NCBI GenBank assembly: GCA_030653255.1
Contig: JAURZS010000033.1
Span: forward strand, 1 to 42,682
DNA length: 42,682 nucleotides
Reading direction: 5' to 3'
DNA from: Burkholderiaceae bacterium
GTDB taxonomy: Bacteria > Pseudomonadota > Gammaproteobacteria > Burkholderiales > Burkholderiaceae_C
The notes under the pieces are model-generated. The model made no database searches, was not told the origin of the DNA, and was given only the letters and a program-made list of their open reading frames with translations. This document shows positions 13,249 to 29,765 of the stretch, piece by piece (the stretch's first letter is position 1; the number at the start of each line of letters is the position of its first letter). Position numbers and translations under genes: made by a program.

Positions 13249-14391
13249 ATGACTGACCTGAATAAACGCTCCCTGCTCAAGGTCGCTGCCTTGACCGCTG
13301 TGGCTGCTGCCGCCCTGGTGGGTTGCGGCAAGAAAGAGGAGGCCGCCACCGCGCCGGCCGCCGCCGCCGCGCCGGCCAAGGCCGAGCCACTGAAGATCGC
13401 CTTTGCCTACGTCGGCCCGGTGGGAGACGGGGGCTGGACCTTCGCGCACGACAACGGTCGCAAGGCGATCGAGAAGGAATTCGGCGACAAGGTCGTCACC
13501 AGCTTCGTCGAGAAAGTGCCCGAATCGGCGGACGCCGAGCGTGTGATCCGCGACATGGCGGCGCAGGGCAACAAGCTGATCTTCGGCACCACCTTCGGCT
13601 ATATGGAGCCCATGCTCAAGGTGGCCGCCGCCAACCAGGGCGTCAAGTTCGAGCATGCGACCGGCTTCAAGACCGTCGAGAATATGCGCACCTACGACAG
13701 CCGCACCTATGAAGGCGCCTACATGGCCGGGGTGATTGCCGGCAAGATGAGCAAGTCCGGCACGCTGGGCGTGGTCGGCTCGGTGCCGATTCCAGAGGTG
13801 ATCCGCAACATCAACAGCTTCACGCTGGGCGCGCAGTCGGTCAACCCCAAGGTCAAGACCAAGGTGGTGTGGGTCAACGAATGGTTCAGCCCGCCCAAGG
13901 AAACCGAGGCTGCAACCGCGCTGATCAACGGCGGGGCCGATGTGCTGTTTCAGAACACGGATTCGTCGGCCGTGCTTCAGACCGCCGAGAAAATGAACAA
14001 GCGCGCCTTCGGCTGGGATTCGGACATGACGTCCTACGGACCCAAGGCGCACCTTGGCTCGGCCGTGATCAACTGGGGCCCCTACTACGTGAAGGCCGTG
14101 CGCGATGCGCTCGAGGGCAAGTGGACCACGGGCCAGACCTGGTGGGGCGTCAAGGAAGGTGCGATCGACATGGTGTCCATCGCTGCCGACGTGCCGGACG
14201 AGACCAAGGCCCGTATCGCTGAAATCAAGAAGGGTCTGAGCGATGGCAGCTTCGCCATCTGGAAGGGTCCGATCGCGGGCCAGGATGGCAAGGAAGTGCT
14301 GGCCAAGGATGCAGTGGCCGACGACAAGTTCCTGAGCGGAATCAACTTCTACGTCAGGGGCGTGGAAGGCAAGGTGCCGGGCGGGAAGTAA
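13249..14391 (+). CDS. BMP-family substrate-binding lipoprotein
   Basis: The protein has 380 residues from ATG at 13249, with AAGGAA six bases upstream. The signal sequence ends in the lipobox ALVGC at about residues 22-26, then an Ala/Pro/Lys linker. The mature domain (LKIAFAYVGPVGDGGWTFAHD; VIRDMAAQGNKLIFGTTFGY; GWDSDMTSYGPKAHLGSAV) is the Bmp/PnrA fold that binds nucleosides or purine bases in the periplasm. It is the last gene of the importer run. Its 3' end overlaps the convergent TetR gene by 43 bases, with no room for a separate terminator. The ligand is inferred from the xanthine and urate genes around it. Confidence 0.93.
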   Translation: MTDLNKRSLLKVAALTAVAAAALVGCGKKEEAATAPAAAAAPAKAEPLKIAFAYVGPVGDGGWTFAHDNGRKAIEKEFGDKVVTSFVEKVPESADAERVIRDMAAQGNKLIFGTTFGYMEPMLKVAAANQGVKFEHATGFKTVENMRTYDSRTYEGAYMAGVIAGKMSKSGTLGVVGSVPIPEVIRNINSFTLGAQSVNPKVKTKVVWVNEWFSPPKETEAATALINGGADVLFQNTDSSAVLQTAEKMNKRAFGWDSDMTSYGPKAHLGSAVINWGPYYVKAVRDALEGKWTTGQTWWGVKEGAIDMVSIAADVPDETKARIAEIKKGLSDGSFAIWKGPIAGQDGKEVLAKDAVADDKFLSGINFYVRGVEGKVPGGK

Positions 14392-15032
14392 GCCCCTGTC
14401 AGGCCCAGCAGGTGCGCGCGCTGGACCGGCTCCAGATAGGGCATCAGCAAGTTGAGCACATGGTGGGCCCCGCGCAGCATGGCTTGCTGCGCGTTGAGCG
14501 GCTCCAGTGCGTGGCGCGGATTGCGCACGTACTCGTAGCTGAGCCAGTAGGTCAGGATCACGACCATGCCGGCTGCTGTGGATGGAATCTCGTGCGGGTC
14601 GATGCGCAGCGCGCCCGAATGGCGCATGCTGCCTAGCAGGGCCTGAATGGCTTGCGCCTTGCTCTCGAGCACCCATTGGAAGCGGTTCTCCAGGCGGCGG
14701 TTCTTGCTCAGCAGATCGTTCAGGTCGCGGTACAGAAAGCGGTAGTCCCAGATCAGCTCGAACAGGCTGTGCATGAAGAACCAGGCGTCTTCGACGTTGC
14801 GCACGCCGCCGCCGGTTTCCAGCAGCGCGCCCAAGGACTTTTCATAGCGGTCGTAGAGCGAGTTGATCAACTCGTCCTTGGCCGGATAGTGGTAGTAGAG
14901 GTTGCCGGGACTGATGCCCAGCTCGGCCGAGATCAGCGTGGTCGAGACGTTGGGCTCGCCGAACCGGTTGAACAGCGCGAGCGTTGTTTCAAGAATCCGC
15001 TCGGCGGTGCGGCGGGGCGCCTTTTTCGCCAT
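14349..15032 (-). CDS. TetR-family transcriptional regulator
   Basis: The protein has 227 residues. The N-terminal TetR helix-turn-helix is at about residues 10-57 (VSTTLISAELGISPGNLYYH followed by YPAKDELI). The C-terminal helical domain is rich in aromatic and Leu residues (DAWFFMHSLFELIWDYRFLY). It follows the phasin gene by 52 bases on the same strand, so it may regulate PHA granule genes or share their transcript. Its last 43 bases run antisense to the end of the BMP lipoprotein gene. A link to fatty-acid or PHA metabolism is an inference from the neighbour only. Confidence 0.88.
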   Translation of the reverse strand: MAKKAPRRTAERILETTLALFNRFGEPNVSTTLISAELGISPGNLYYHYPAKDELINSLYDRYEKSLGALLETGGGVRNVEDAWFFMHSLFELIWDYRFLYRDLNDLLSKNRRLENRFQWVLESKAQAIQALLGSMRHSGALRIDPHEIPSTAAGMVVILTYWLSYEYVRNPRHALEPLNAQQAMLRGAHHVLNLLMPYLEPVQRAHLLGLTGAYFPPGTLPSTPLT

Positions 15033-15084
15033 GCTTCAGTTCCCTGTTGGCGGGCGCTGGCCGGGTCAGCGCGGTCTCGCGGGC

Positions 15085-15618
15085 TCAGCCGGCCCGGCGC
15101 TTGGCACGCGGCTTGGCGGTCCCTGTTGCCGGCTTGGCCGTCCGTTTTGCGGCTGGTGCGGGGCTGCTTGCGGCCCGCACGACAGGCCGAGGCTTGGCAG
15201 TCGGCTTGGGTGTGAGCCGACTCACTGTGCGATTGAGCTCGTCGATGCGCGCGGTCAGCGCCGCGACTTCTGCTGTGGTGGGAACGCCCAGCTTCTTGAG
15301 CGACCTCGATACGCGTTCCTCAAACAGAGTCTCCAGTTTGTTCCACTGACCCGATGCCTTGGCCGTGAGGTCGGTGGCCATGCTGGACATCTTGTCTGAA
15401 GCCTCGGACATCTTTTCCTCAGCGACGGCCTGGGTCTTGCGCTGCAGGCTGCTGCCTTCCCGGACCAGGCTTTCGAATACCTTGCCGCCTTCTTGCTGCG
15501 CCTTGGCGAATGCGCCGAGTCCGGCCAGCCAGATCTGGTGCGCCGATTCCTTGACGGTGTCGGAGAGTTGCGAGCCGGACTTCTTGTCGGCGCTTTGTTT
15601 CTGCGGTTTCTTTGCCAT
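15085..15618 (-). CDS. Phasin, PhaF/PhaI-type PHA granule protein
   Basis: The protein has 177 residues. Residues 1-125 form the phasin domain (SAHQIWLAGLGAFAKAQQEG; VFESLVREG), an amphipathic helical segment that coats polyhydroxyalkanoate granules. A coiled-coil stretch (AALTARIDELNRTVSRL) and a basic Lys/Pro/Ala tail follow, similar to the histone-H1-like DNA-binding tail of PhaF. That tail in the family tethers granules to the nucleoid. Only 43 bases separate its start from the upstream TolC gene's stop, so read-through from the secretion operon is possible. The basic tail supports PhaF-like rather than plain phasin function. Confidence 0.9.
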   Translation of the reverse strand: MAKKPQKQSADKKSGSQLSDTVKESAHQIWLAGLGAFAKAQQEGGKVFESLVREGSSLQRKTQAVAEEKMSEASDKMSSMATDLTAKASGQWNKLETLFEERVSRSLKKLGVPTTAEVAALTARIDELNRTVSRLTPKPTAKPRPVVRAASSPAPAAKRTAKPATGTAKPRAKRRAG

Positions 15619-15661
15619 GCGTTGGACTCCGGAAAATGGACGGATGCGCTACTTTACGCCT

Positions 15662-17140
15662 TCAAGGCCTGAGCCAGGCATTGATTTCGTTGATCGTGTC
15701 TTCCTTGGGGCCTCCGGCCAGCGCCTGCAGGCGCACGCGCGAAAGGAGATAAACGTAGCGCGCCTGTGCCAGATCACGGCGGGCGGACACCAGGGACTGT
15801 TCCGCGTTCAGGGCCTCCATCAGCGTGCGGCTGCCGGCCTCGTAGGAGCGGCGATTGGAGATGACCACCTGCTCGGCGGAGCGCACGGCCTGCTCAAGCG
15901 CACGCACACGAAGCACGCCTTCGGTGATGCTGCGGAACTCCTTGTGGATGCGCAGGCCCAGGTCGCGGCGCGTCGCCTCCAGCGACTGTTCGATGCGCTC
16001 CAGGTCCGCCAGGGCCTGGCGCACGGTCGAGTTGACGTAGCCGCCTGAAAACAAAGGCAGGTTGAATTGAAATCCGAAGGAGCGGTTGGTATAGCGATTG
16101 TTCACGGCAGTGACCGTGTCGCTTTCAGTGCGCGAGATCTGGGCGATGGCGTCCAGCGTGGGGTAGTGCCCGGCGCGCGCCTTCTCGATCTCTTCGCGGG
16201 CGGCGTTGCGCTGGGCCTGCAGCGCCTGGATTTCGGGGCTGTGGATCTCCGACTGTTCGATCCAGTGCTCGACCCGGTTGGGCGAGGGCGGCGCCAGCAA
16301 CATGCGGGCCTCATCGAGTGTGGCCAGGTTGCCTGTGGGCTGGTTGGTGATGGTTTGCAGCTGGCGCAGCGTGAAGTCCACGTTCTGGCGGGCTTCCAGC
16401 TCCTGGGCCACGTTCATGTCGAGTGCGGCGCTGGCCTCATCGACGTCGGTGCGGGTGCCCGAACCTGCGGTCAGTCGCTTGCGCGCAGCGTCGAGCTGTG
16501 TGGCGTAAGCGGTCTTCTGCGACAGGACCAACGCGAGCTGGTCGCTGGTCAGCAAGGCTTCGAGGTAGGCGCTTGCAACACGCACGGACACATTTTGCAG
16601 CTCGCGCTCCAGATTGGCGTTGGCCTCGTCAACCTGGGACTGTGCTTGCCGGTAGTCCGCGAGCTGGTACTTGCGAAACAACGGCTGGCGCAAGGTGAGC
16701 GCCTGGGAGCTGCTGACGTAGTTCTGCCGGTAGGAAAAAGGCGAGCCCAGCGGGCCAGGCACCGTGGCGTCCAGCTTGTTGGAATTGCGCGAGACGCTCA
16801 GCCCAATGTTGGGCAGCAGCTGCGCGCGGGCCTGCGGCAGGCGCTCACGCCGCGCTTCGGCGCCAGCGCGGGCCGACCGCATCAAGGCGTCCTGCTCCAG
16901 TGCCGCCTGGTAGGCGCCGCGCAGGTCGAGGCGGGGCACGGTGGGCAGGGGCGGGGCCTGCATGGTGTTCCGCGTGTCGGGCGGCCCTGCCAGGGCCGAC
17001 AGCGCACGGTCCACGCTGTTCGATGTCTGTGCCATCGAGAGACTGGCCGCACCGAGCGCGCCGCAGCACACGATGCAGGCCGCAGCCAGCCGGCGCAGAC
17101 GTGGCGATGCGGCGCGAACCTGGGAGTGAGAGTGCTTCAT
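15662..17140 (-). CDS. TolC-family outer-membrane channel of the type I exporter
   Basis: The protein has 492 residues. A signal peptide covers roughly residues 1-37 (ACIVCCGALGAASLSMAQ). Two outer-membrane efflux protein repeats follow: LDLRGAYQAALEQDALMRSA begins the first, and SRTESDTVTAVNNRYTN with the strand FGFQFNLPLFSGGYVNSTVR belongs to the second. The predicted trimer would be a beta-barrel in the outer membrane with a long periplasmic helical tunnel. It lies two bases after the HlyD-type gene and is the outer-membrane component for the two ABC proteins upstream. The likely cargo is the RsaA-like protein at 34779-37409. Confidence 0.93.
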   Translation of the reverse strand: MKHSHSQVRAASPRLRRLAAACIVCCGALGAASLSMAQTSNSVDRALSALAGPPDTRNTMQAPPLPTVPRLDLRGAYQAALEQDALMRSARAGAEARRERLPQARAQLLPNIGLSVSRNSNKLDATVPGPLGSPFSYRQNYVSSSQALTLRQPLFRKYQLADYRQAQSQVDEANANLERELQNVSVRVASAYLEALLTSDQLALVLSQKTAYATQLDAARKRLTAGSGTRTDVDEASAALDMNVAQELEARQNVDFTLRQLQTITNQPTGNLATLDEARMLLAPPSPNRVEHWIEQSEIHSPEIQALQAQRNAAREEIEKARAGHYPTLDAIAQISRTESDTVTAVNNRYTNRSFGFQFNLPLFSGGYVNSTVRQALADLERIEQSLEATRRDLGLRIHKEFRSITEGVLRVRALEQAVRSAEQVVISNRRSYEAGSRTLMEALNAEQSLVSARRDLAQARYVYLLSRVRLQALAGGPKEDTINEINAWLRP

Positions 17141-17142
17141 TC

Positions 17143-18513
17143 CTATTCCTCCTTCATGGACGCGGCCATGCGCTTGGTCAGCGGGTGCAGCAGATAGGTC
17201 AGCACGGAGCGCTCGCCAGTCTTGAAGATGACTTCGGCCGGCATACCCGGCTGCAGCGCGCGCGTGCCCAGCTTCTTCATGCCCTCTGGGGTCAGGTTCA
17301 CGCGCGCCAGGTAGTAGACGCTGCCGTTTTGCGGATCGGTGAGCAGGTCCTTGGACACCGTCATCACCTTTCCTTCGACCACCAACTGGGGCGAATTGGC
17401 AAAGGCATTGAAGCGCACGTCGACGCTCAGGCCCGCGTGGACCTTGTCGATGAAGTGCGACTGCACCCGTGTCTCCAGGATCAGGACTTCGTCTTCAGGC
17501 ACCACGTCCATCAGCTTTTGGCCGGGAGCGACCACACCGCCCACGGTCTGCACCGTCAGGCCCACGATCTGACCGGATGTTGGCGCCTTGATTTCCGTGC
17601 GAGACAGATCGGCCTGGTAGGCCACCAGCTTTTCTGCTTCGATCGTCACTTCGCGGCTGATGTCGCCGATCTGACTTTCGATTTCCTTGCGGTACTCTTG
17701 CTGGCGCGAGATCATGCGCTGGCGCACTTCGGCGATGGAGCGGCGGGCGCGGACAATGTTGCCCAGAAGCTCTGCTGCTGCAGCGTTCGATTCGGCCACC
17801 TGGCGTTCCAGTTCAAGCTGACGGTTGCGCGGTGCGTAGCCATCCTTGACCAGACCGCGGGTGTTGTTGAGCTCTTCATTGAGCAAGGCCAGCTGGCTGC
17901 GGCGGCTGACCAGGATGCTCTCGTAGGACTGGATCATTCCTTCCTGTCCCTGGATGTTTTCCTCCAAGCCCTGGAGGTCCGCGCGCAGTGCGGCCCGGCG
18001 CGAGGCCAGCAACTGTTCCTGGTTCATCGTCTGTTGCCGAATCGACGGATCCTGGCTGGCCGCCACCAGGTCGGGGTGGTAGCTGATGGTGCTCTTGCCG
18101 CCTTGTTCTGCGGCCAGGCGCCCTTGCACCGCACGCAGGTTCAGGTAGCGCTGGCGCGAAGCTTCGTAATTGGCGCGGGCCACCGCATCGTCCAGGCGGA
18201 TCAGCAACTGGCCTTCCTTGACACGGGTGCCCTCACCGACCAGCACCTCCTTGATGAGGCCACCCTGGAGATGCTGCACGGTCTTGCGCTTGGTGTCGAT
18301 GGAGACCAAACCGGGTGCAGGCACGCCCTCGTCGAGCGGCGCCAACGCGGCCCACAGCACAAAGCCGCCGAATCCGATGGCCAGCGCCCACAGGCCGATG
18401 CGGCTGGCGCGCCCGGTATCGGTCGACAGTCCGGCGGTGGAGAATTCGGTCACCTCGCCTGGGGCTGGCGCAGGGGTGGAAGTCAGGCGTTTGAGATTTT
18501 CAGGTTTGGCCAT
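17143..18513 (-). CDS. HlyD-family periplasmic adaptor of the type I exporter
   Basis: The protein has 456 residues. A single N-terminal membrane segment is at about residues 38-60 (IGLWALAIGFGGFVLWAALA). A lipoyl/barrel-sandwich half-motif (GLVSIDTKRKTVQHLQGGLI) and long helical hairpins follow. The C-terminal part carries IKAPTSGQIVGLTVQTVGGV and PGMPAEVIFKTGERSVLTYL, the PrtE/HlyD signature region, which ends just before a last amphipathic stretch. The protein bridges the inner-membrane ABC exporter and the TolC channel. It sits 63 bases after the second ABC gene and two bases before the TolC gene. Confidence 0.95.
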   Translation of the reverse strand: MAKPENLKRLTSTPAPAPGEVTEFSTAGLSTDTGRASRIGLWALAIGFGGFVLWAALAPLDEGVPAPGLVSIDTKRKTVQHLQGGLIKEVLVGEGTRVKEGQLLIRLDDAVARANYEASRQRYLNLRAVQGRLAAEQGGKSTISYHPDLVAASQDPSIRQQTMNQEQLLASRRAALRADLQGLEENIQGQEGMIQSYESILVSRRSQLALLNEELNNTRGLVKDGYAPRNRQLELERQVAESNAAAAELLGNIVRARRSIAEVRQRMISRQQEYRKEIESQIGDISREVTIEAEKLVAYQADLSRTEIKAPTSGQIVGLTVQTVGGVVAPGQKLMDVVPEDEVLILETRVQSHFIDKVHAGLSVDVRFNAFANSPQLVVEGKVMTVSKDLLTDPQNGSVYYLARVNLTPEGMKKLGTRALQPGMPAEVIFKTGERSVLTYLLHPLTKRMAASMKEE

Positions 18514-18576
18514 TTGGAGCCTCGGCTAGTGACAGGTAAAAAGAGGGTGGGGCTGTGGGCGGTTCAGCGGCGGAAA

Positions 18577-20313
18577 TCATGCTGGCAACGCACCGGTTGC
18601 GGAAGATCCGGGCGTGGACGGGAGGGACTGTGCACGCAGCTTGGCCACCACTTCGTCGCGCGGACCTTCGTGTTCTATTCTTCCGTCGCGCAGAATCATC
18701 AGGCGGTCGGCTGCGGCGACCGCGCCCGGCCGGTGCGTGATCAGGAAAACGGTCTTGCCTTTGGCCTTGAGTTCGCTGACTGTCCGCAGCAGCGCCAGCT
18801 CGCCGGCGTCGTCAAGATTGGCATTGGGTTCGTCGAGCACGACCAGCGCGGGGTCGCCATAGACGGCGCGGGCCAACCCGATGCGCTGGCGTTGTCCGCC
18901 AGAGAGCAGGCTGCCGGCTTCGCCGATGGGGGTGTCGTAGCCTTTGGGCAGGCGCAGGATCATGTCGTGCAATCCGGCACAGCGTGCCGCTTCGATGATC
19001 TTGGGGGAATCGAGCTCGCGGAAGCGGGAGATATTTTCTGCGATGGTGCCGTCAAAAAGCTCGACGTCCTGCGGCAGATAGCCCAGGTGCGGGCCGAGCT
19101 CCATACGGTTCCAGCCCTGGATGGGCAGGCCGTCGAGCAGAACCTCGCCACGCACATCGGGCCAGATGCCGATCATGGTGCGCGCCAGCGTGGACTTGCC
19201 CGAACCCGAAGGCCCCAGCACCACGACCACAGTGCCCGCAGCCACACTGAAACTGATGTCCTTGAGGATCGCAGTGGTGCGGCCCGGCGCGCTGGCCGAA
19301 ACCTTGCGCAGTTCCAGTTTGCCGGAGGGCGCCACGCGGGTCAGCGTGGCGTCGCGCTCGGGGTAGGCCTTGAGCAGTGCGCTCAGCCGCTGGTAGGCTG
19401 CGCGGGTGCTTACGAAAACGCGCCAGCTTCCCACCAGCTGATCGATTGGGGCCAGGGCGCGGCTCATGAGCACATTGGCGGCGATCATCGCGCCGGCGGA
19501 CAGGCGGCCGTCGATCACAAGCAGGGCACCCGCGCCCAAAGACAGCGACTGCTGCGAATAGCGTATGAACTTGCTGAAGGCCACCACCTTGTGGCTCTGG
19601 GCCTGGGCCACATTGCCCTGCGCCATGGCATTCTGGTGACGCTCGTCCCAGTGTCCATGCAGGTTGCGGATCATGCCCATGGATTCGAGCACTTCCGCGT
19701 TGCGCACCTTGCCATAGAGATAGGCGCTGACGTCGTTGCTGGCTTTGGCGGCGTCCTCTGAAGGCTTGACGGTGTGGCGATGTCCGAACCAGGCCAGGGC
19801 CGCTTGCACCAGCGCAAAGATCAGGGCCAGGATGCCGAGCCAGGGATGCAGCATGAAGGTCACGGCGATATAGATCGGCGCCCAGGGCGCATCGAAGAAG
19901 GCGAACAGGCCTTGACCGGTCAGGAACTGTCGCACCTGTATCAGGTCGTTGAAAGCCCGCGAGGGGTTGGCGCCGGTCTGGCTGAGGTAGGCCTCGAAAC
20001 TGGCATTGAACACGCGGGTGCTGAGCTCGTTGTCAAAACGCAGCCCTGCGCGGACCAGGACACGGGCCCGCGCCCATTCTGAAAATGCCATCACTACGAA
20101 AAGAAACAGCGTGATCATCGAGACCGCGAGCAATGTCAGCTCGCTGCCGCTGATCATGACGCGGTCGAACAACTGCAGCATGTAAATGGTGGGCGCCAGC
20201 AGCATCAGATTCGAGACAAAGCTGAAGATGCCGACCACGATGAATTCGCGGCGGAAGGACCGTAGCGTGACCGAGAGTTCATTGCGTCCGCGGTAGGGAT
20301 TTTTATTGTTCAT
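18577..20313 (-). CDS. Type I secretion ABC transporter 2 (PrtD-like)
   Basis: The protein has 578 residues from ATG at 20313; the open frame starts further upstream but only covers the end of the previous gene. It has an N-terminal six-helix exporter domain without a C39-type or long cytoplasmic extension. The ABC domain has Walker A GPSGSGKST (residues 367-375), Q-loop LGYLPQDVELFDG, signature LLSGGQRQRIGLARA, Walker B LVVLDEPNANLDD and switch LITHRPG. It is closely related to the ABC protein just upstream. All catalytic motifs are intact in both, so neither looks like a degenerate partner. Such PrtD/RsaD-type transporters export RTX proteins without cleaving a leader. Confidence 0.95.
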   Translation of the reverse strand: MNNKNPYRGRNELSVTLRSFRREFIVVGIFSFVSNLMLLAPTIYMLQLFDRVMISGSELTLLAVSMITLFLFVVMAFSEWARARVLVRAGLRFDNELSTRVFNASFEAYLSQTGANPSRAFNDLIQVRQFLTGQGLFAFFDAPWAPIYIAVTFMLHPWLGILALIFALVQAALAWFGHRHTVKPSEDAAKASNDVSAYLYGKVRNAEVLESMGMIRNLHGHWDERHQNAMAQGNVAQAQSHKVVAFSKFIRYSQQSLSLGAGALLVIDGRLSAGAMIAANVLMSRALAPIDQLVGSWRVFVSTRAAYQRLSALLKAYPERDATLTRVAPSGKLELRKVSASAPGRTTAILKDISFSVAAGTVVVVLGPSGSGKSTLARTMIGIWPDVRGEVLLDGLPIQGWNRMELGPHLGYLPQDVELFDGTIAENISRFRELDSPKIIEAARCAGLHDMILRLPKGYDTPIGEAGSLLSGGQRQRIGLARAVYGDPALVVLDEPNANLDDAGELALLRTVSELKAKGKTVFLITHRPGAVAAADRLMILRDGRIEHEGPRDEVVAKLRAQSLPSTPGSSATGALPA

Positions 20314-20347
20314 GGAGGTGTCCTGGGGGATTCGCGTGCAGCCTGCG

Positions 20348-22096
20348 TCAGGCCGCTTCGGGCAGGGCGCCTGGCAGGCCGCCCTGGCGAGCTGCTGACT
20401 GGGCCTGTTCGCTGGCCTTCTTGATGGCTGCCAGAACATCGTCGCGCGGCCCGAAAGCCTGCAGCATGCCGTCGCGCAATACCAGCATCTTGTCGGACAC
20501 CGCCAACACGCTGGTGCGGTGGGTCATGACGACGATGGTCGTGCCGCGTGATTTCAATTCCAGCAGCGCGGTGGCCAGCGCGGCGTCGCCGGCTTCGTCC
20601 AGGCTGGAGTTGGGTTCGTCGAGCACCAGAAAAACCGGATCGCCATAGAGTGCTCGGGCCAGACCCACGCGCTGGCGCTGACCACCAGACAGCACGGCGC
20701 CTTCGATGCCGATGGGTGTGTCATAGCCTTGGGGCAAGGCAAGAATGAATTCATGCAGACCCACGGCCCTGGCCGCTGCCTGTATCTTGGCAGGCTCGAT
20801 CGGGCCGAAGCGCGAGATGTTGTCGGCGATCGTGCCGTCGAACAGTTCCACCCCCTGCGGCAGATAGCCGACGTTGGGGCCGAGTTCGTTCTTGTTCCAG
20901 GCAAAGACATCCGCGCCATCAAGCCGCACCTTGCCATTGGCGGCCGGCCATACGCCGGCCAGCAGGCGCGCCAAGGTCGTCTTGCCGGCGGCAGAAGGCC
21001 CCACCACAGCCAGAATTTCGCCGGGGTTCAGACTGAAGGCGATGCCCTTCAGTATCGGGGCACTGCCGCCAGGCGCGCCCGCCACCAGGTTCTCGACCTG
21101 CAGCAGGCCCTTGGGTGCCGGCAGCGGCATGGAGGCGACTTCGGGCGGCACTTGCCCCAGGAGGCGGTCAAGCCGGGCCCAGGAGTCGCGCACGGTGACG
21201 ACGGCACGCCACTGCGTCACGATCTGCACCAGGGGGGCGATGACGCGGCCTCCGAGAATGGAAGCCACGATCATCATGCCGGCGCCGCCATTGAGCGCAT
21301 TGCGCAGCAGCAGCCAGCAGGCCAGGCCCAGCATCAGCGAGCCCATGACCGTTTGCATGAACTTTGTGATCGACTGGTAAATGCCGGCGCGATCCGAGGC
21401 CAGCGCCTGCAGTCCGAGAAATTCGCGTTGCTTGTCCATCCACTTGCGGTGGATGTCGCGCAGCATGCCCATGGATTCGATCACTTGCGCGTTGCGCAGT
21501 GAGCTATCGGCATACAGCTGGGCGGCGCGCGCGCTGCTGCTCGCCGCCGTCAGGGGGGGCTGTGTGCTGCGTTCATTGAGCCAGCCGATCAGGGTCTGGA
21601 GCAAGGCGCCGACCACGGCGGCCCAGCCCAGCAAGGGACTGATGGCAAAAATCAGAACGAGGAACACCAGCGACACGGGCGCTTCCATCATGGCCAGCAC
21701 CACGGGCGAAGACAGGAACTCCCGGATGGTGCGGAAGTCGTTCATGGGCTGGATCGAGGCCGGTGTGATGCGCCGCAGGTAGCCCTTGAAGACCACGTCG
21801 AACATGCGCCGGCTCAACTTCCGGTCCAGAGCCAGCCCGGCTTCGCGCATGACCTCGCTGCGGGCCCATTCGAGCACCTCCATCAGGGCATAGGCGCCTA
21901 TCACCGCGAGAGTCAGCATCACCAGCGTCATGTGGCTGCGGCTGTTGACCACGCGATCGTAGACTTCCAGCATATATCCGCTGGGGGCCAGCACCAGCAG
22001 ACTAGAGAACAGGCTGAACCAGGCGGCCCGCACAAAAAAGGGACGCAGGCTGCGCACCGCGTCGCGAAGTTCGGAGGGCGGGGTGTTGATATTCAT
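20348..22096 (-). CDS. Type I secretion ABC transporter 1 (PrtD-like)
   Basis: The protein has 582 residues. The membrane domain spans about residues 20-300. The ABC domain has Walker A GPSAAGKTT (residues 366-374), Q-loop VGYLPQGVELFDG, signature LSGGQRQRVGLAR (from residue 469), Walker B FLVLDEPNSSLDE (D493, E494) and switch VMTHRTS. Its start overlaps the stop of the TnpB-like gene by four bases (ATGA), which ties the two products in translation. The second ABC protein follows after 34 bases. The tandem arrangement suggests either a heterodimeric exporter or two exporters sharing the HlyD and TolC components. Confidence 0.95.
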   Translation of the reverse strand: MNINTPPSELRDAVRSLRPFFVRAAWFSLFSSLLVLAPSGYMLEVYDRVVNSRSHMTLVMLTLAVIGAYALMEVLEWARSEVMREAGLALDRKLSRRMFDVVFKGYLRRITPASIQPMNDFRTIREFLSSPVVLAMMEAPVSLVFLVLIFAISPLLGWAAVVGALLQTLIGWLNERSTQPPLTAASSSARAAQLYADSSLRNAQVIESMGMLRDIHRKWMDKQREFLGLQALASDRAGIYQSITKFMQTVMGSLMLGLACWLLLRNALNGGAGMMIVASILGGRVIAPLVQIVTQWRAVVTVRDSWARLDRLLGQVPPEVASMPLPAPKGLLQVENLVAGAPGGSAPILKGIAFSLNPGEILAVVGPSAAGKTTLARLLAGVWPAANGKVRLDGADVFAWNKNELGPNVGYLPQGVELFDGTIADNISRFGPIEPAKIQAAARAVGLHEFILALPQGYDTPIGIEGAVLSGGQRQRVGLARALYGDPVFLVLDEPNSSLDEAGDAALATALLELKSRGTTIVVMTHRTSVLAVSDKMLVLRDGMLQAFGPRDDVLAAIKKASEQAQSAARQGGLPGALPEAA

Positions 22097-22695
22097 GTGG
22101 CTTCCTCAACCATGACGTATTCCGGAATCTCGCCTTTGGCGGAGTCTGCAGCTGGCGTCTCGCCGTCCTGCGTATGCGAGAACCAGAAAGAGAGTCCAAA
22201 TTGACCTTGCTCGTCGCGCGACAGCACGATCTCGCGCAGCTTCTTCTCGTGGAACCGCTTTTCGTCTTCGGGCCGAAGGGCCAGGTGAAAGCGGATGCGG
22301 CCTTCAAGGGTGTACATCGAGAGCCACTGGTCCTTGACGCTGAGCGTGTGGCGGTCGAAATAGACCGGGCAGGTTTCCGTGAAGCGCAGCAGGGGCAGCG
22401 GCTTGTCGCCCAGGCGGGCGACATTGAAGGGACTCTGGGGATGCTGATACACCAGACGGCAGGTCCGCGACACCGAGTAGATGGCGTTGCAGACCATCTG
22501 CGAGCCCATGTGAGGGAATTTCTCGCGTAACTGCTTGTAGGCCAGATGATGCAGGGCGACGCGGTTCCAGCAACGGGTTTGCTGCACGATGGGCGCCAGC
22601 GCATTGCAGGTCTGCGCAAACGCCTGTTGCAAAGCCTGCAGGCTTTCGGTCTGCGCAGCGGACGCAAGCAGGGGGATGCGGAGAATAAAATTCAT
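22093..22695 (-). CDS. TnpB-like N-terminal domain protein lacking RuvC, first gene of T1SS operon
   Basis: The protein has 200 residues. The ATG at 22695 is the only good start, because TAA stands in frame five codons upstream. I recognise the pattern of the N-terminal half of IS605 OrfB/TnpB proteins: FAQTCNALAPIV, NRVALHHLAYKQLREKFP, GSQMVCNAIYSVSRT, YFDRHTLSVKDQWLSMYTLE and GRIRFHLAL line up with the conserved ACN, LH-Y--LRE, SQM and SLWTL-GR blocks. In TnpB a RuvC domain (GIDLG) would begin at about residue 180. Here the protein ends with an acidic tail, so the nuclease and zinc-finger parts are absent. Overlap with an exporter gene by four bases suggests a retained function rather than a transposon relic. 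There is no recognisable Shine-Dalgarno just before the start. Function unknown; nucleic-acid binding is an inference. Confidence 0.65.
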   Translation of the reverse strand: MNFILRIPLLASAAQTESLQALQQAFAQTCNALAPIVQQTRCWNRVALHHLAYKQLREKFPHMGSQMVCNAIYSVSRTCRLVYQHPQSPFNVARLGDKPLPLLRFTETCPVYFDRHTLSVKDQWLSMYTLEGRIRFHLALRPEDEKRFHEKKLREIVLSRDEQGQFGLSFWFSHTQDGETPAADSAKGEIPEYVMVEEAT

Positions 22696-22728
22696 ATAGG
22701 ACGTGGATTATCGCATCTCCTATATGAA
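22691..22728. promoter_or_regulatory. 11-bp perfect inverted repeat over the start of the T1SS operon
   Basis: TTCATATAGGA (22691-22701) and TCCTATATGAA (22718-22728) are exact inverted copies with a 16-base spacer. The left arm contains the start codon of the TnpB-like gene. On the minus strand the spacer contains GATAAT (22712-22707), a 5-of-6 match to a -10 element. If that is used, transcription would start only a few bases before the ATG and the repeat would act as a DNA operator. If transcription starts further upstream, the repeat would form an mRNA hairpin hiding the start codon. Confidence 0.6.
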
Positions 22729-22751
22729 ATTAACCTGGCTTCGGCCCGGGA

Positions 22752-22767
22752 TGTGACGGGAATCACA
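22752..22767. promoter_or_regulatory. CRP-type site upstream of T1SS operon
   Basis: TGTGACGGGAATCACA matches the TGTGA-N6-TCACA consensus of CRP with both half-sites perfect. It is centred at 22759.5, about 65 bases before the TnpB-like gene start and in the region shared with the Wzt-like gene. Relative to the GATAAT candidate at 22712-22707 the site would sit near -60, a class I activator position. It is almost identical to the site before the S-layer gene. Confidence 0.7.
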
Positions 22768-22888
22768 ATTCAACCCGTCCGCGAGGGGCCTGGGGGTGTC
22801 AGGAGCGGGGGGCGAAGCGCAAAACCCCTGTGCGACAATTCGTCGCTATGTTGTCACGCATGCCGCAGCAGCGGCCCTGGGCTGCCCG

Positions 22889-25198
22889 ATGATCGAACTG
22901 GACGAGGCCCCGCAGGCCACCTCCGGCCGGTTGAATCCGCCAGGACAGGCGCTGGCGGGGTCCCTGGTCATCGAGGCGCGCGGCATCGGCAAGGCTTACT
23001 ATCCCCATTCCAGCCCGGCATCGGCGTTGCTGGCCGCCCTGTCCGGATCGAACCGCCGCAGCCAGCCGTTCTGGGCCCTGCATCCGATGGACCTTTCGGT
23101 GCAACGCGGCGAAGTGCTCGGACTGGTGGGGCACAACGGTGCCGGCAAGTCCACCCTGCTGCAGATGATCAGCGGCACCTTGTCGCCCAGTGTCGGACGA
23201 CTGCAGGTGCGCGGCCGCGTGGCGGCACTGCTCGAACTGGGTGCGGGCTTCAATCCGGAATTCAGTGGCCGGGAGAACCTGTTGCTCAATGGGCCGCTCA
23301 TGGGTCTGAGCCGCCAGCAGCTCGCGGCGCGGCTGGACGAAATCATTGAATTTTCGGGCATAGAGGCCTTTATCGACCAGCCGGTCAAGACTTACTCCAG
23401 CGGCATGTTCGTGCGTCTGGCGTTTTCGCTGGCCACCAGCGTCGAGCCCGACATTCTCGTGATCGATGAAGCGCTGTCCGTGGGCGACGGAGAGTTCGCG
23501 CGCAAGTCCTTCGACCGCATCCTGAAGTTGCGCGACCAGGGGACGACCATTCTCTTTTGCTCGCACTCGATGTACCAGATCGAGTCCCTGTGCACGCGCG
23601 CCGTTTGGCTGGACCATGGGCAGGTCAAGCGCGTGGGGCGGCCGGCCGACGTGACCACCGCGTACCAGGAGCATCTCGACCAGATGTCGGCCCCCGCAGG
23701 CATGCGGGCTGATGGCGCTGCGCCTGCGCTGGTCGTGACATCGCCGGGGCATGCGCGGATCAAGACACTGCAGCTCGCGTGCGACGGGCGCACAGGCGCC
23801 GCGCTGCAGGCGGTGTCGGGTCGAAGCAATATAGAGCTGACCCTGGGCTTCGAATCCGACCCGACGCTCGATGCGCCCAATGCCGCCGTGACGCTCAACG
23901 GCGCCGATGGTCGGATCCTTGCCAGCTCCGGAACCTGGATCGATGGCGTGCGGCTCCAGCGCAGCGAAAGCGGTCATGGCACGGTGCACATCCGCTTTCC
24001 GGCGCTGCCGCTGCTCAAGGGCAGTTACACCTTCTCCGCCTATCTCTTTTGCGAGCGCGGCCTGCATATCTACAGCGCGGCCGAAAAGTTCGCCACGTTG
24101 GCGGTCGAGCAGCATCACCTGGAGCAGGGCATCGTCTCGATCCCGCATCAGTGGTCCAGCGAGGCCGGCATGGCGCAGCGCGCCGATGTGCCGGTGCAGG
24201 CCGGGTCCGATGGCCCGGGCGCGTTGGTGCTGCCGGCCGAATGGACACCGCATTGGCAGACCCGTTGGTCCGTGGCCGACGATCTGCCGGCATTGCAGGA
24301 CCTGTTTACCGAAGCCTTTGGCAAGCCGATGTCGCAGCGCCGCTGGCACTGGAAGTACCGCCAGTCGCCAACCTGGGGCACATTGGTCGAGCGCGAAGGG
24401 GTAGCCTCGGCTTTTTTCGGCGGCATGCCGCGCGCCTTCATGCTGGCCGGCAAGCCGGTGGCGGCGGTCCAGATCGGCGACGTGATGGTGCGCCCGTCGG
24501 AGCGCGGCGTGCTGTCGCGCACCGGCCCCATGTTTCGCGCGGCGGCGGCCTACTTCGGCAATATGGCAGCGCTGTACCCGGAGGTTCGCTTCGCGTTCGG
24601 TTTCCCCTCACAGCGCCATGTCAGGCTCGGCCTGAAGCTGGGCCTGTACGCGCAGGCAGACGCGATCTCCGAGCTGTCCTGGCCGGCCTTGGCGCCGAAA
24701 CGCAGCTGGCAAACCAAGACCCGCGGCATTGACCACTTGCCTGATGCGGCAGGTGCGCTCGATCGGCTGTGGCGTGAAATGCAGCTTCAATGGCCCGGCT
24801 GGCTGCTGCCGGTGCGCGATGCGGCGCGGTGGCAGTACCGCTATGCGGATCATCCGGAGCACAGCTACCGCGTTCTTCTGATCAGGCGCCGCATCGGTGG
24901 CCGTCCCATCGCCGCCGTGGCCTTGCGCGAACACGCCACGCACCTTGAATGGCTGGACTACCTGGGGCCGCTCGCGGGCGTTGCGGTGGCCCAGCGCGCG
25001 GTGCGCATGCGTGCAGGCGAACTGCAGTTGCCGCAGGTCCGGGGCTGGTTCAGCAGTGTGCTGGTCGATCTGTTTGCCGACGCCGACGCCACAGTGACGC
25101 CCACCGAAGTTCAAGTACCCATAAACCGCTGGGGCCGCGACGACGCGCAGTTGCCGGCGCCAATCTGGCTGATGGCCGGCGACACCGACTTCCTCTGA
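22889..25198 (+). CDS. Wzt-like polysaccharide export ATPase fused to a GNAT-like domain
   Basis: The protein has 769 residues from ATG at 22889; a GTG at 22796 is also possible and neither has a strong ribosome site. Residues about 25-265 are an ABC ATPase of the O-antigen/teichoic-acid type: Walker A GHNGAGKST (81-89), LLELGAGFNPEFSGREN, signature TYSSGMFVRLAFS, Walker B ILVIDEALSVGD. Residues about 285-430 resemble the Wzt C-terminal beta-sandwich that recognises the polysaccharide end. Residues from about 475 (LQDLFTEAFGKPM; RRWHWKYRQSP; FAFGFPSQRHVRLGLKLGLY) look like a GNAT-family acyltransferase. A Wzm-like permease partner is at 28103-28906 on the other strand. The fusion could couple chain modification with export; that is inference. 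Confidence 0.82.
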   Translation: MIELDEAPQATSGRLNPPGQALAGSLVIEARGIGKAYYPHSSPASALLAALSGSNRRSQPFWALHPMDLSVQRGEVLGLVGHNGAGKSTLLQMISGTLSPSVGRLQVRGRVAALLELGAGFNPEFSGRENLLLNGPLMGLSRQQLAARLDEIIEFSGIEAFIDQPVKTYSSGMFVRLAFSLATSVEPDILVIDEALSVGDGEFARKSFDRILKLRDQGTTILFCSHSMYQIESLCTRAVWLDHGQVKRVGRPADVTTAYQEHLDQMSAPAGMRADGAAPALVVTSPGHARIKTLQLACDGRTGAALQAVSGRSNIELTLGFESDPTLDAPNAAVTLNGADGRILASSGTWIDGVRLQRSESGHGTVHIRFPALPLLKGSYTFSAYLFCERGLHIYSAAEKFATLAVEQHHLEQGIVSIPHQWSSEAGMAQRADVPVQAGSDGPGALVLPAEWTPHWQTRWSVADDLPALQDLFTEAFGKPMSQRRWHWKYRQSPTWGTLVEREGVASAFFGGMPRAFMLAGKPVAAVQIGDVMVRPSERGVLSRTGPMFRAAAAYFGNMAALYPEVRFAFGFPSQRHVRLGLKLGLYAQADAISELSWPALAPKRSWQTKTRGIDHLPDAAGALDRLWREMQLQWPGWLLPVRDAARWQYRYADHPEHSYRVLLIRRRIGGRPIAAVALREHATHLEWLDYLGPLAGVAVAQRAVRMRAGELQLPQVRGWFSSVLVDLFADADATVTPTEVQVPINRWGRDDAQLPAPIWLMAGDTDFL

Positions 25199-25199
25199 A

Positions 25200-27044
25200 A
25201 TGCCGATGGATTTTCCTCACGTTCCCGTACTCGACATATCAGTTGTCACCTACAACTCGGCACGCTGGCTCGAGCCCTTCATGCGCAGCCTGCTCAAGCA
25301 GGATCTGCCCTGCACGAGCATCCGCCTGCTGTTTCGCGACAACGGATCGAGCGACGATACCGTGGAGCGCCTGCACGCGATCGCGCAGCGGCATTCCGGC
25401 GCCTTCGCGCAGATCGATATCGACACCGGCGACAACATCGGCTTCGGTCGCGGCCATAACGCGAATCTGGAAAAGGCGACAGCGCCCTGGCTGATGGTGA
25501 CCAACGTCGATCTTGAATTCGAGCCCCAGACCCTGCCCCTGCTCATCCAGCGCGCCAGTGCGGCTCCGGCGGATGTCGCGGCCTGGGAGTGCCGACAAAA
25601 GCCGTACGAGCATCCCAAGCATTACAGCCCCGTGACCGGCGAGGTGGCCTGGGCATCGAGCGCCTGCGTGCTGTATCGGAGCGCCGCGCTGCGTGACATC
25701 GCCGGCTATGAACCGAAGCTTTTTCTCTATGGCGAGGACGTCGAGATTTCCTATCGCCTGCGTGACCGCGGCTGGCTGCTGCACTATGTGCCGCAGGCCA
25801 CGGTCTGGCATTTCACCTACGAGCATGCGGCCCAGGTCAAGCCGGCGCAGTTTCTGGGTAGTACGCTGGCCAATGTGCTGCTGCGCTGCCGCTACGGCCG
25901 GTGGGCCGAAGTCGCGCAGGGCTTTTTGATGTACCTGGGGCTGTTCGCCATGAAGCCCCAGTTCCCCGGCCAGCGCCGCCAACTGGCGCTCAACGGGCTG
26001 AAACTGCTCAGGCTCGCGCCTTACTTCCTGAGCACCCGCAAGCGCTCCGCGCTGCGCTTTGATTTCCGGCTGTGGGACTACGAGATTGCGCGGCACGGAG
26101 CGTTCCACGAATACCCGATCAGTGAAGGCGATGCCGAGCAGCCCCTGGTCAGTGTGCTGATCCGCACAGTGGCTGGCCGTGGCGGAAAGCTGGTCGAAGC
26201 GCTGGCATCGGTGGCCAACCAGACCTATCCGCACATCGAGGTGGTGATCGTTGAGGACGGCAGTGCCACGGCGGCGCCCGTGGCCGATCGTCTGCGCGAG
26301 TCCGGACGTTTTGCTGGTGTCGTCTACAAGGGCCTGGCCAAGGTCGGGCGCTGCGAGGCCGGCAATGCCGCGCTGGCGCTTGCTGGCGGGGATCTGTTCT
26401 GCTTTCTCGACGACGACGACCTGTTTTATGCGGACCACCTTGAAGTGCTGGTGCAGGCGCTGCGCGGGCGGCCTGAACTCGGCGGCGCCTACAGCCTGTC
26501 CTACCAGGTCCGCACCGAAGTCATCAGCGACGAACCCTGGCGCTACCGCGAAGTCGAGCACAGCCTGCTGTACCGGCAGCCTTTCAGCCGGGCGCTGCTG
26601 TGGCACCACAATTACCTGCCGATCCAGACGGTGCTGTTTCGCCGCCAGCTCTATGACAGCTACGGCGGCTTCGATCCCGAACTCGACAACCTCGAGGACT
26701 GGAATCTCTGGGTGCGCTATACGCTGGAGCAAGACCTCGTCATGGTCGACAAGGTTACTTCCCTCTACCGCGTGCCCGCCCACGCCGACCGGGCCGTGCA
26801 ACGCCAGCAGGTTCTGGACGACTATTACGCGAAGGCTGTGGCCAAGCATGCCCGCTTGCGCGTCACGCTCAATCCGAACCAGGTCGTTGCCATGGGCAAG
26901 GAACTGGCGCAGGATCTTTATTTCGTGGCGGTGCCGCTCAGCGGACTGCGCAATGCCGTGCTCGCGCGCCCCTGGCTGGCGCGCTTCTACCATCCGTTGC
27001 GTCGCATGGCGAGTCTGGCCCGCCGCGTTGCCAGACGGATCTAG
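25200..27044 (+). CDS. Two-domain GT2 glycosyltransferase
   Basis: The protein has 614 residues. The first GT-A domain (about 10-250) starts LDISVVTYNSARWLEPFMRS, with the metal-binding region LMVTNVDLEFEP and the rhamnosyltransferase-like LFLYGEDVEISYRLRDRG. The second (about 315-560) starts PLVSVLIRTVAGRGGKL, with CFLDDDDLFYADH and LDNLEDWNLWVRY, typical of GT2 enzymes. Two complete domains suggest a bifunctional enzyme adding two sugars. It begins right at the stop of the Wzt-like gene and ends six bases before the PIG-L gene. Sugar specificity cannot be read. A role in O-polysaccharide or S-layer glycan synthesis is inferred from context. Confidence 0.9.
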   Translation: MPMDFPHVPVLDISVVTYNSARWLEPFMRSLLKQDLPCTSIRLLFRDNGSSDDTVERLHAIAQRHSGAFAQIDIDTGDNIGFGRGHNANLEKATAPWLMVTNVDLEFEPQTLPLLIQRASAAPADVAAWECRQKPYEHPKHYSPVTGEVAWASSACVLYRSAALRDIAGYEPKLFLYGEDVEISYRLRDRGWLLHYVPQATVWHFTYEHAAQVKPAQFLGSTLANVLLRCRYGRWAEVAQGFLMYLGLFAMKPQFPGQRRQLALNGLKLLRLAPYFLSTRKRSALRFDFRLWDYEIARHGAFHEYPISEGDAEQPLVSVLIRTVAGRGGKLVEALASVANQTYPHIEVVIVEDGSATAAPVADRLRESGRFAGVVYKGLAKVGRCEAGNAALALAGGDLFCFLDDDDLFYADHLEVLVQALRGRPELGGAYSLSYQVRTEVISDEPWRYREVEHSLLYRQPFSRALLWHHNYLPIQTVLFRRQLYDSYGGFDPELDNLEDWNLWVRYTLEQDLVMVDKVTSLYRVPAHADRAVQRQQVLDDYYAKAVAKHARLRVTLNPNQVVAMGKELAQDLYFVAVPLSGLRNAVLARPWLARFYHPLRRMASLARRVARRI

Positions 27045-27050
27045 CGCTCC

Positions 27051-28112
27051 ATGGAAGACTGGTTTCAACCTCATGCATCTTCGGCGTTGCCCCCGGCACG
27101 CAAGGTATTGGTGCTGGCGCCGCACCCGGATGACGAGGTGTTCGGTTGCGGCGGCTGTATTGCCTTGTATGCGCGCGACGGCGCCACCGTCGAAGTTCGG
27201 GTCCTGACCGACGGCGGCGGTTATCTGGCGGGCGCACAGCGCGAATCTGTGGTGCGCACACGCCAGGACGAGAGCCGGCGCGCTGCTGCGCTGCTCGGTG
27301 TGGCCGAGTTGTCGTTCGAGAACTTTCTGGATCGCGGGCTGAGCGCCGATCCACGCTTCCTGGGACGCATGAATGAGCTGGTCGAGGCGACATCCGCCGA
27401 CGTCATCTTTGCACCTTCTCTGTGGGAGGTCCACCCTGACCATCGCGTGATCGCCTGGGCGCTTGTCCAGGCCTGTTTGCGCAGACAGGCGGTGCGGGGC
27501 GATGCGCCCGTGCTGGCCTTCTTTGAGGTGGGCGCGCCGCAAAGGCCCAACTGCCTGATCGACATCAGCACGGTGGCCGCCTTGAAGAAACAGGCCATGG
27601 GCATGTTCGAGTCGCAGCTTGCCATGCAGCCGTACGACCGGCATATCGCCGCGCTCAATGTTTTTCGCACCTATGCCTTGCCGGGCGTTGAGGCTGCGGA
27701 AGGCCTGTACACAGTGGCGCCGCAGGACCTGGCTGCCTGGGCCGGGTCTTATGGGGAGGCCACGAGCCCGGGGCTGGCTGACGTCACCGAAACTGCGCTG
27801 AAACTGGCCCATGCATCGGTCGAGCGCTTGCAGCAATCGCTGACCGCGACGCAGCAGGTGGCGGCCGAGCAAGGCCGGCGGATTGTGTCACTCGACGCCT
27901 TGCTTGCAAGCACGCGGGCCGAGCTTGAGAGCACCCGCGCGGAGTTGGCGGTAACGGTCGAACAGCGCAACGGTCTGCAATGGGCGCGCGATCATGTGCA
28001 GGCCGAGCGCGACAGCATTGCGGCCGAGGTGCAGGCCATGTTGCAATCCCGGTCCTGGCGGTACACAGCGCCGCTGCGCTGGTTGATGCGCGTATTGCGT
28101 CGTCAGAGCTGA
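27051..28112 (+). CDS. PIG-L (LmbE) family deacetylase with coiled-coil tail
   Basis: The protein has 353 residues. The LmbE/PIG-L domain (about 15-215) has the zinc motif LVLAPHPDDEVFGCGG and the second histidine motif VHPDHRVIAWAL. Family members remove acetyl groups from N-acetylglucosamine-type sugars. Residues 245-330 form a long coiled coil (LASTRAELESTRAELAVTVE). The end, MLQSRSWRYTAPLRWLMR, is a motif I associate with the ends of coiled coils in polysaccharide glycosyltransferases. The gene ends convergently with the Wzm-like permease, with 10 bases of overlap. It probably modifies a sugar of the surface polysaccharide. Confidence 0.88.
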   Translation: MEDWFQPHASSALPPARKVLVLAPHPDDEVFGCGGCIALYARDGATVEVRVLTDGGGYLAGAQRESVVRTRQDESRRAAALLGVAELSFENFLDRGLSADPRFLGRMNELVEATSADVIFAPSLWEVHPDHRVIAWALVQACLRRQAVRGDAPVLAFFEVGAPQRPNCLIDISTVAALKKQAMGMFESQLAMQPYDRHIAALNVFRTYALPGVEAAEGLYTVAPQDLAAWAGSYGEATSPGLADVTETALKLAHASVERLQQSLTATQQVAAEQGRRIVSLDALLASTRAELESTRAELAVTVEQRNGLQWARDHVQAERDSIAAEVQAMLQSRSWRYTAPLRWLMRVLRRQS

Positions 28113-28906
28113 TCGGCGAACGAGGGCCGCAGGCGCTCGAACACCGCGGCCGCCAGCGCCGCCAGGGCCGTCCATACCAGCGCATAAAACGCCAATGCCC
28201 CCCAGTGCGGCCACTGCCCCAGCAGCAGACAGGCGCGCAGACTCTCGATGGGCAGTGCCAGTGGATTGACGACGAGCCAGGGCTGCAATGCGGCCGGCAG
28301 GGACGAGGCGGGATACAGCACCGGCGTGAGGAACAACAGCACATTGAGCACCGGCGCCACCATCTGGCCGATGTCGCGCAGAAACACCCCGAACGCGGCC
28401 AGCAGCCAGCCCAGGCACAACAGCACCGGCAGCATGCAAAGGAGAATCAAGGGCACGGCCAGTGCGCTGAGCGGGGGCACACCCTGCAGGTAGAACACAC
28501 CGGCGAGCAGCACCACGAGGCTCAAGGCCGCATGGAACATTGCGCCGCCGACGCCGATCCAGGGCAGGACCTCCAGCGGAAAGATCACGCGCTTGACCAG
28601 ATTGGGCTGTTCCAGCACCAGGCGCGGCGCCCGGCCCACGACCTCCGCGAACAGATTGAACAGCACCAGTCCGGCAAAGATGTTCAGCGCAAAGGTGCCG
28701 GGGTGGTCTTCCATGCCCGGCCAGCGCGCCTTGAAGATCAGCCGGAACACGAACGTATAGGTGGCCAGCAGCAGCAACGGATACAGCATGCTCCAGCCCA
28801 GGCCCAGCACCGAGCCCTTGTAGCGGCCCAGGATGTCGCGCCGTGTCATTTGCAGGATCAGGTAGGCGTTGGACAGCGGCGCCATGGAGCGCAGTAACGT
28901 GTTCAT
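28103..28906 (-). CDS. Wzm-like ABC-2 polysaccharide export permease
   Basis: The protein has 267 residues from ATG at 28906, overlapping the crp stop by four bases. It starts MNTLLRSMAPLSNAYLILQM and contains RDILGRYKGSVLGLGWSMLY, typical of the N-terminal amphipathic region of O-antigen ABC-2 permeases. About six membrane helices follow, with the late motif FLTPVLYPASSLPAALQPWL. It should form the inner-membrane channel for the Wzt-like ATPase at 22889. Splitting permease and ATPase to opposite strands is unusual, since they normally sit side by side. Coupling to crp hints that polysaccharide export and the regulator are made together. Confidence 0.9.
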   Translation of the reverse strand: MNTLLRSMAPLSNAYLILQMTRRDILGRYKGSVLGLGWSMLYPLLLLATYTFVFRLIFKARWPGMEDHPGTFALNIFAGLVLFNLFAEVVGRAPRLVLEQPNLVKRVIFPLEVLPWIGVGGAMFHAALSLVVLLAGVFYLQGVPPLSALAVPLILLCMLPVLLCLGWLLAAFGVFLRDIGQMVAPVLNVLLFLTPVLYPASSLPAALQPWLVVNPLALPIESLRACLLLGQWPHWGALAFYALVWTALAALAAAVFERLRPSFADQL

Positions 28907-29598: not shown

Positions 29599-29688
29599 TG
29601 CTACCGAGACGTAAAGGGCAGGGAGGAGGGGTGGCTGTGCATTGTGCAACACTTCACCATCCGGGCCTTGTAGGCATAAGCCTCTTTT

Positions 29689-29704
29689 TGTGACCATGCT
29701 CACA
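29689..29704. promoter_or_regulatory. CRP-type site between crp and fecR
   Basis: TGTGACCATGCTCACA has both CRP half-sites perfect. It lies 90 bases upstream of the Crp-family gene and 61 bases upstream of fecR. A GATAAT at 29709-29714 stands just downstream on the plus strand, so binding here could block that promoter, or activate another start. Autoregulation of the regulator and control of the fecR-cyclase operon are the simplest readings. Confidence 0.65.
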
Positions 29705-29726
29705 GACAGATAATTGCTTTTGTGTC

Positions 29727-29745
29727 CCAATTAAGTGCTAATTGG
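29727..29745. promoter_or_regulatory. Palindrome CCAATTA-N5-TAATTGG before fecR
   Basis: CCAATTA (29727-29733) and TAATTGG (29739-29745) are perfect inverted repeats with a five-base spacer, ending 20 bases before the fecR start. The size fits a dimeric repressor site different from the CRP-type site just upstream. No protein in the window can be assigned to it. Confidence 0.5.
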
Positions 29746-29765
29746 TCTTATTGGCGGCATCCATC

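Follow-up and report, generated by a model that had tools for sequence, protein, structure and literature searches.

The TnpBN gene and its operon

In the window analysed here, the whole stretch of 42,682 nucleotides from contig JAURZS010000033.1 of a Burkholderiaceae bacterium (assembly GCA_030653255.1), an open reading frame (ORF) of 200 aa is located on the minus strand at 22093-22695, with its ATG at 22693-22695. Sequence, profile and fold comparison identify the product, here named TnpBN, as a free-standing WED+REC half of TnpB, the nuclease of IS605-type elements. The gene shares four bases, 22093-22096, with the ORF at 20348-22096 (minus strand), which matches the family of PrtD-type type I secretion permease/ATPases (ABC1; TIGR01842). 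Consecutive on the same strand are a second PrtD-type permease/ATPase (ABC2; TIGR01842; 18577-20439 as the longest ORF, the true start probably lying further in), an HlyD-type adaptor (TIGR01843; 17143-18513) and a TolC-type outer membrane channel (TIGR01844; 15662-17140). The first-pass annotation of this DNA had recognised the N-terminal blocks of TnpB in the 200-residue protein, its stop before RuvC and the four-base overlap, all of which are confirmed by the ORF translation and coordinates. It had also seen no decayed RuvC remnant after the gene; indeed no RuvC is found 3' of TnpBN, where the exporter gene begins at once. The conserved tail of TnpBN, PEYVMVEE, may be what is left of RuvC strand 1.

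The promoter region of TnpBN carries two exact copies of an 11-bp operator-like word, TTCATATAGGA, which stand inverted to each other. One copy, at 22691-22701 on the plus strand, covers the start codon and reads TCCTATATGAA on the gene strand; the other, at 22718-22728 on the minus strand, is located upstream of a -10-like hexamer, GATAAT (22707-22712, minus strand), which lies between the two words and fails the strict TA...T rule.

Relationship of TnpBN to TnpB and its linkage to the exporter

Whether TnpBN matches a TnpB profile, as the first-pass annotation expected, depends on the method: library scans with the single protein gave no such match, while profile-profile and fold comparison did. 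In the Pfam scan, 0 families were found up to E 10, neither the RuvC nor the TNB domain (PF01385, PF07282) among them; NCBIfam gave no TnpB, its one match (E 0.007) being to an unrelated family; PHROGs gave no TnpB and two families at E 0.2-0.3, and sequence searches of the PDB no TnpB match. A tblastn search of plasmid records returned 18 records matching TnpBN, and most of the annotated ones are TnpB or transposase. The best of them, from Methylomarinovum tepidoasis (2e-20, 40% identity over residues 7-148), has a TnpA gene adjoining. By hhalign, 24 TnpBN homologues matched seven full-length TnpBs, picked for their similarity to TnpBN, across residues 2-173 (probability 99.9, E 1.6e-31). All seven match both PF01385 and PF07282, and they in turn match 14 ordinary PF01385 TnpBs at E 1e-38 in profile comparison. 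Against the identification, TnpBN itself had no significant hhalign match to these 14, more distant TnpBs of the same bacterial family. Chance resemblance to TnpB is ruled out by the plasmid matches together with the hhalign result.

The PDB chains that best match the AlphaFold2 model of TnpBN (24 sequences; mean pLDDT 88) are those of Cas12f, of TnpB and of other Cas12-type proteins. Foldseek gave E 1e-7 for AsCas12f and E 8.5e-6 for ISDra2 TnpB (8exa), and the VIA Z rose to 14.9 for Cas12f (AsCas12f 14.2) and to 11.5 for ISDra2 TnpB. Residues 1-178 of the model superpose nearly 1:1 on residues 3-179 of 8exa, so that the predicted fold corresponds to the WED+REC half. The resemblance to Cas12f (AsCas12f, SpCas12f1, OsCas12f; Z 14.1-14.9 over 157-167 residues) is one of fold, since the Cas12f proteins differ in being CRISPR nucleases that have a RuvC domain and use a guide RNA. 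The WED+REC fold is likewise shared with ISDra2 TnpB (8exa, 8ex9, 8bf8, 8h1j; Z about 11-11.5), from which TnpBN differs in having no RuvC, no TNB and no nuclease site.

The nearest TnpBs are the Methylomarinovum protein beside TnpA (L143, 40%), those of nine IMG/VR contigs (L224-L232) and that of genome G068 (L115, profile E 4e-36). The nine viral loci were found with the TnpBN profile and show 36-46% identity in the matched part; two of them, L229 and L230, look identical. A GSQM(V/C)C block is present in all these proteins, as GSQMVC in all nine viral ones, and the corresponding REC block, GSQM-C, formed by G64-S65-Q66-M67 and C69, is invariant across the 24 aligned TnpBN rows. Unlike TnpBN, these relatives are of full length and carry the RuvC signature GxDxGENN where the contig reaches it: the start of RuvC is visible in eight of the nine viral loci, as GxDxGENN in seven and as a variant in L226, L227 being cut. 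No TnpA-like ORF was found in the kilobase upstream of the nine.

A scan of genome contigs yielded 148 relatives of TnpBN, and the locus counts given here rest on the best 80 of them (59-76% identity). They are 192-227 aa long (median 202), at least two (L015, L068) being clipped by contig ends. ABC1 is located 3' of TnpBN on the same strand and within 132 nt in 78 of the 80 loci, and the other two are uninformative, their contigs ending 74 and 1 nt past TnpBN. The exporter gene is thus adjacent in 78/78 informative loci, and the expectation that homologues keep the linkage to type I secretion and are not scattered at random holds. ABC2, HlyD and TolC then follow in order wherever the contig is long enough, with the exception of L046, which has no TolC match. 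TnpBN and ABC1 distances are correlated (r 0.77 over 71 loci; 0/999 permutations as high), and TnpBN is under purifying selection (median dN/dS 0.24, maximum 0.53, in 463 non-independent pairs with measurable divergence). Excess codon conservation within the gene is diffuse, which indicates no overlapping element.

A 45-row tree separates the 24 TnpBN rows used from all others by a branch of 100/100 support, with the Methylomarinovum and G068 TnpBs as neighbours. The topology is compatible with a single origin of TnpBN without proving it, and the tool warns of long branches elsewhere in the tree; a separate exaptation that retained only the WED+REC half, as had been suggested, is supported by it. 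TnpBN occurs in some betaproteobacteria, with a patchy distribution. In a set of 120 family genomes, each from a different genus, nine have a profile match at 1e-5, seven of them strong. A search of 299 genomes from the phylum gave, apart from the window, just two strong matches: another TnpBN from the same family (G289) and a full-length TnpB (G068). The genome of the window has one strong TnpBN match and no PF01385 TnpB, so the multiple copies that mark IS200/IS605 mobility are not seen for TnpBN.

A truncated TnpB homologue could be taken for transposon debris. This explanation, to which we give practically no credence, is refuted by the 148 relatives (80 examined) and the narrow range of their lengths, the invariable linkage, the purifying selection and the single strong match in the genome.

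Several side observations concern TnpBN-like frames. Two loci of genome G009 (L144, L148) encode a TnpBN with about 75 extra N-terminal residues, and the operator word there still holds a start codon. In two other genomes, frames of 109 codons (L152, 1405-1731, plus strand) and 103 codons (L153, 1435-1743, minus strand) align with residues 14-93 and 11-66, respectively, of TnpBN (E 2e-7 and 4e-7), each directly upstream of a gene which we take to be polyphosphate kinase 2-like; these frames are perhaps a second, REC-only family derived from TnpB.

The identified neighbours of TnpBN in the window are exporter, glycan and regulator genes, and no TnpA gene is present among the neighbours examined. 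Genes for a Wzt/Wzm-type glycan exporter, a glycosyltransferase and a PIG-L deacetylase adjoin the operon (22796-29221), the nearest ones being divergent. An 876-aa protein encoded at 34779-37409 (plus strand) is rich in G/S/T/N/D/Q, poor in K/R/H/C/M/W/P and without a Pfam match at E 1e-8; by its composition it is a candidate for the secreted cargo of the exporter, and ORFs resembling it in composition occur in 11 of the 80 loci. According to PMC10765051, NpdA S-layer proteins adjoin a type II system, and they are therefore not taken as cargo here.

The 11-bp word at TnpBN promoters

Within the window alone, the number of words at up to two mismatches is equalled in 43 of 100 shuffles, so the case for the word rests on the relatives. 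Promoters could be compared for 78 of the 80 loci, those with at least 60 nt upstream, plus the window. The word TTCATATAGGA occurs in all 79 of them, exactly in 74 and with one mismatch in five. At up to two mismatches, an inward-facing pair is formed in 54 promoters and an inward pair with a third copy in eight; the remainder have the upstream copy only (five), two copies both oriented like the second one (five), an outward pair (three), the second copy only (three) or two copies both oriented like the first (one). In L076, upstream of position 10001, the inverted repeat has become longer in that lineage, with a perfect arm of 23 bp and a loop of 9 nt.

The word is virtually confined to these promoters. 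In the 1.19 Mb of the 80 loci, 155 matches with up to one mismatch lie inside the promoter windows; outside, there are 0 exact matches and three with one mismatch. The exact word is present in five of seven carrier genomes, each time only at the TnpBN promoter, as in the genome of the window (90% complete), while three of 14 genomes lacking TnpBN hold one stray exact word each. The paired pattern is found in three of 120 genomes, all carriers.

Of the 79 promoters, 76 have between the words a TA...T hexamer that matches TATAAT in at least four of six positions, where shuffles would give 13.5; in 46 of the 76 it starts at -17 or -16 from the ATG. In sigma-70 promoters such a -10 box would place the transcription start no more than about 5 nt from the ATG. 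On that geometry the two words would lie on either side of the -10 box and reach over the transcription start, where a repressor would sit; an activator acting from the spacer is conceivable, if less usual.

The word also follows the presence of the gene. A good ABC1 match was found in 65 of 399 genomes of the family, and the best 30 of these 65 loci, that of the window included, were examined. TnpBN is present in 26 and absent in four; the word (up to one mismatch) accompanies 25 of the 26 and none of the four (Fisher p 2e-4, kinship uncorrected). Three of the absences (L190, L195, L196) belong to one genus, in which two other members (G051, G698) retain TnpBN, and are read as deletion remnants: the start codon and first codons are kept, together with the tail EYLM(V/L)EEQAA in two and LEEQAA in the third. 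The remnants keep the -10 box as TAGAAT, with three mismatches in the upstream word and two, two and four in the second. In the fourth, G044, neither TnpBN nor the word was detected. Among more distant exporter loci, the word is absent from those without TnpBN (L171, L172, L177) and takes a one-mismatch form in G024, which has TnpBN. Decay of the word with loss of the gene is what a pair of reader and operator predicts.

These loci bear on the possibility that another regulator reads the word, TnpBN having a different task in the exporter as a chaperone or accessory subunit. The unfailing position of TnpBN next to the exporter would suit such a task. The word, however, is absent or decayed where TnpBN has been lost and the exporter stays; there are no further exact copies in the genome, unlike what a general regulator would have; and TnpBN has the fold of proteins that read nucleic acids, although function does not follow from a shared fold. 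We regard this explanation as improbable. Control of the operon by TnpBN, proposed in the first-pass annotation, thus gains comparative support from an operator-like word that stands at its own promoter and tracks the gene; of the proposed S-layer link, nothing stands beyond the nearby ORFs of secreted-protein-like composition.

A proposed TnpB-derived autoregulator

From these comparisons we propose, at a probability of about 0.65, that the WED+REC half of TnpB acts as an autoregulator of the type I secretion operon, reading TTCATATAGGA through the cleft that once read the target-adjacent motif (TAM), and without guide RNA. An IS605-type TnpB nuclease would have lost its RuvC and TNB parts, and the remaining WED+REC half would have been kept as a regulator heading the operon. 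TnpBN would read the word as double-stranded DNA; bound at the words flanking the -10 box, over the transcription start, it would block RNA polymerase and, being made from the exporter's own operon, would limit that operon by autorepression.

The sequence of the word gives a hint of its origin, because it starts with TTCAT. In the IS605 layout, the sequence outside the left end of the element contains the target site and TAM. Viral contigs were searched with a left-end pattern from two elements (L115, L168), which excluded TTCAT itself. Just outside the hairpin of the left ends (12 matches in 11 contigs plus the two seeds), TTCAT is found in 11/14 and TCAT in 14/14, or 9/12 and 12/12 with the seeds excluded, while two control windows further out have TTCAT in 0/14 and 1/14; the scored window was fixed after the sequences had been inspected. 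Kin of the nearest TnpBs are few: 61 genomes of one family gave one match, the query itself, 398 genomes of the phylum also gave one, G068, with no many-copy genome for TAM comparison, and viral contigs scanned for the L143 TnpB yielded two kin, both weak. In ISDra2 TnpB, according to PMC10097598, the TAM is read in a cleft made of WED and REC (contacts Y52, S56, K76, F77, Q80, T123 and N124), and the ωRNA (wRNA) is held mainly by WED and RuvC. TnpBN keeps the TAM-reading part and has lost a large part of the wRNA-holding part, and the operator word may have grown out of the TAM. That TnpBN founds a family of transcription factors, in which the TAM-reading half acts by protein alone, an 11-bp operator has arisen by extension of the ancestral TAM, (T)TCAT, and specificity is inherited from the target motif of a transposon rather than from a guide RNA, we judge slightly better than an even bet.

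The same order of TAM and following bases would be expected if TnpBN were still RNA-guided, with TTCAT as the TAM, ATAGGA as the start of a short target and the guide RNA made elsewhere, as in TldR. The word can indeed be parsed in the order used by TnpB, a TAM followed by 6 nt, and TldRs are RNA-guided promoter repressors according to PMC13418256. Against this, RuvC, which holds the wRNA together with WED according to PMC10097598, is gone. A search at gathering scores found no Rfam match in 14000-32000, which is weak as evidence, as a distant or unusual RNA could escape it. ATAGGA is found in no more than two loci of any intergenic class, and no intergenic 8-mer is widely shared, none occurring in more than 13/58 loci, or in more than 4/11 in the smallest class (the ABC1-ABC2 class is unreliable, some of its rows being paralogues). 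RNA guidance is thus unlikely, while standing a little ahead of the other alternatives to protein-only reading.

Several observations weigh against protein-only operator reading. The inward pair, found in 62 of 79 promoters, is lacking in 17, and its start-to-start spacing varies from 20 to 38 (26-28 in 47/62). The carrier G025 shows only a degenerate copy of the word, at the start codon. TnpBN is missing from four of 30 close exporter operons and is therefore not required for export; these four absences are probably two events. At two mismatches, the second word still counts in two of the three remnants, because the start codon lies within it. The role of (T)TCAT as the TAM of the parental TnpB is probable, as judged from element ends, and among the nine viral TnpBs a left end was recognisable by eye in four, with TCAT in all four and TTCAT in one.

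Finally, the bases flanking the two arms covary (outer1 37/60 and inner1 38/60, against 25.5 and 26.0 in shuffles that ignore kinship), which would also suit an RNA hairpin, and RNA from 22640-22740 has a folding z of -2.9. TnpBN could accordingly bind its own mRNA, the inverted words forming a hairpin over the start codon and WED, which binds RNA in TnpB, controlling translation. The -10-like hexamer between the words in 76/79 promoters, however, would leave the upstream word outside the transcript, and the hairpin is impossible in the 17 promoters without an inward-facing pair. We consider translational control as doubtful as the reading of the word by another regulator.

The exaptation of TnpB as a regulator is already known from the TldRs, which retain an inactivated RuvC region. 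TnpBN, in the role proposed for it, would resemble them in this and does so in its stable linkage to non-transposon genes, the TldRs being tied to genes of a host or a phage; unlike the TldRs with their dead nuclease domain, TnpBN is without RuvC and TNB, and the Rfam and intergenic-word searches gave no RNA to compare with their guide RNA (gRNA). PMC13418256 describes TldRs as having lost nuclease activity, kept gRNA and DNA binding and carrying a gRNA cassette. New here is the 11-bp word at TnpBN promoters; a literature search, with most subscription papers outside its coverage, found no report of a RuvC-less TnpB regulator.

If autoregulation by TnpBN is true, it would represent a second and opposite route of TnpB domestication, in which guide and nuclease were discarded and the reader of the motif was kept, and would add a new DNA-binding domain to those of bacterial regulators. 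Whether the reading of TAM or PAM (protospacer-adjacent motif) acts alone would become directly testable in a protein of 200 residues, and enough is known of the nearest full-length TnpBs, and of the motif that they probably read, for a side-by-side comparison of the two proteins on identical DNA.
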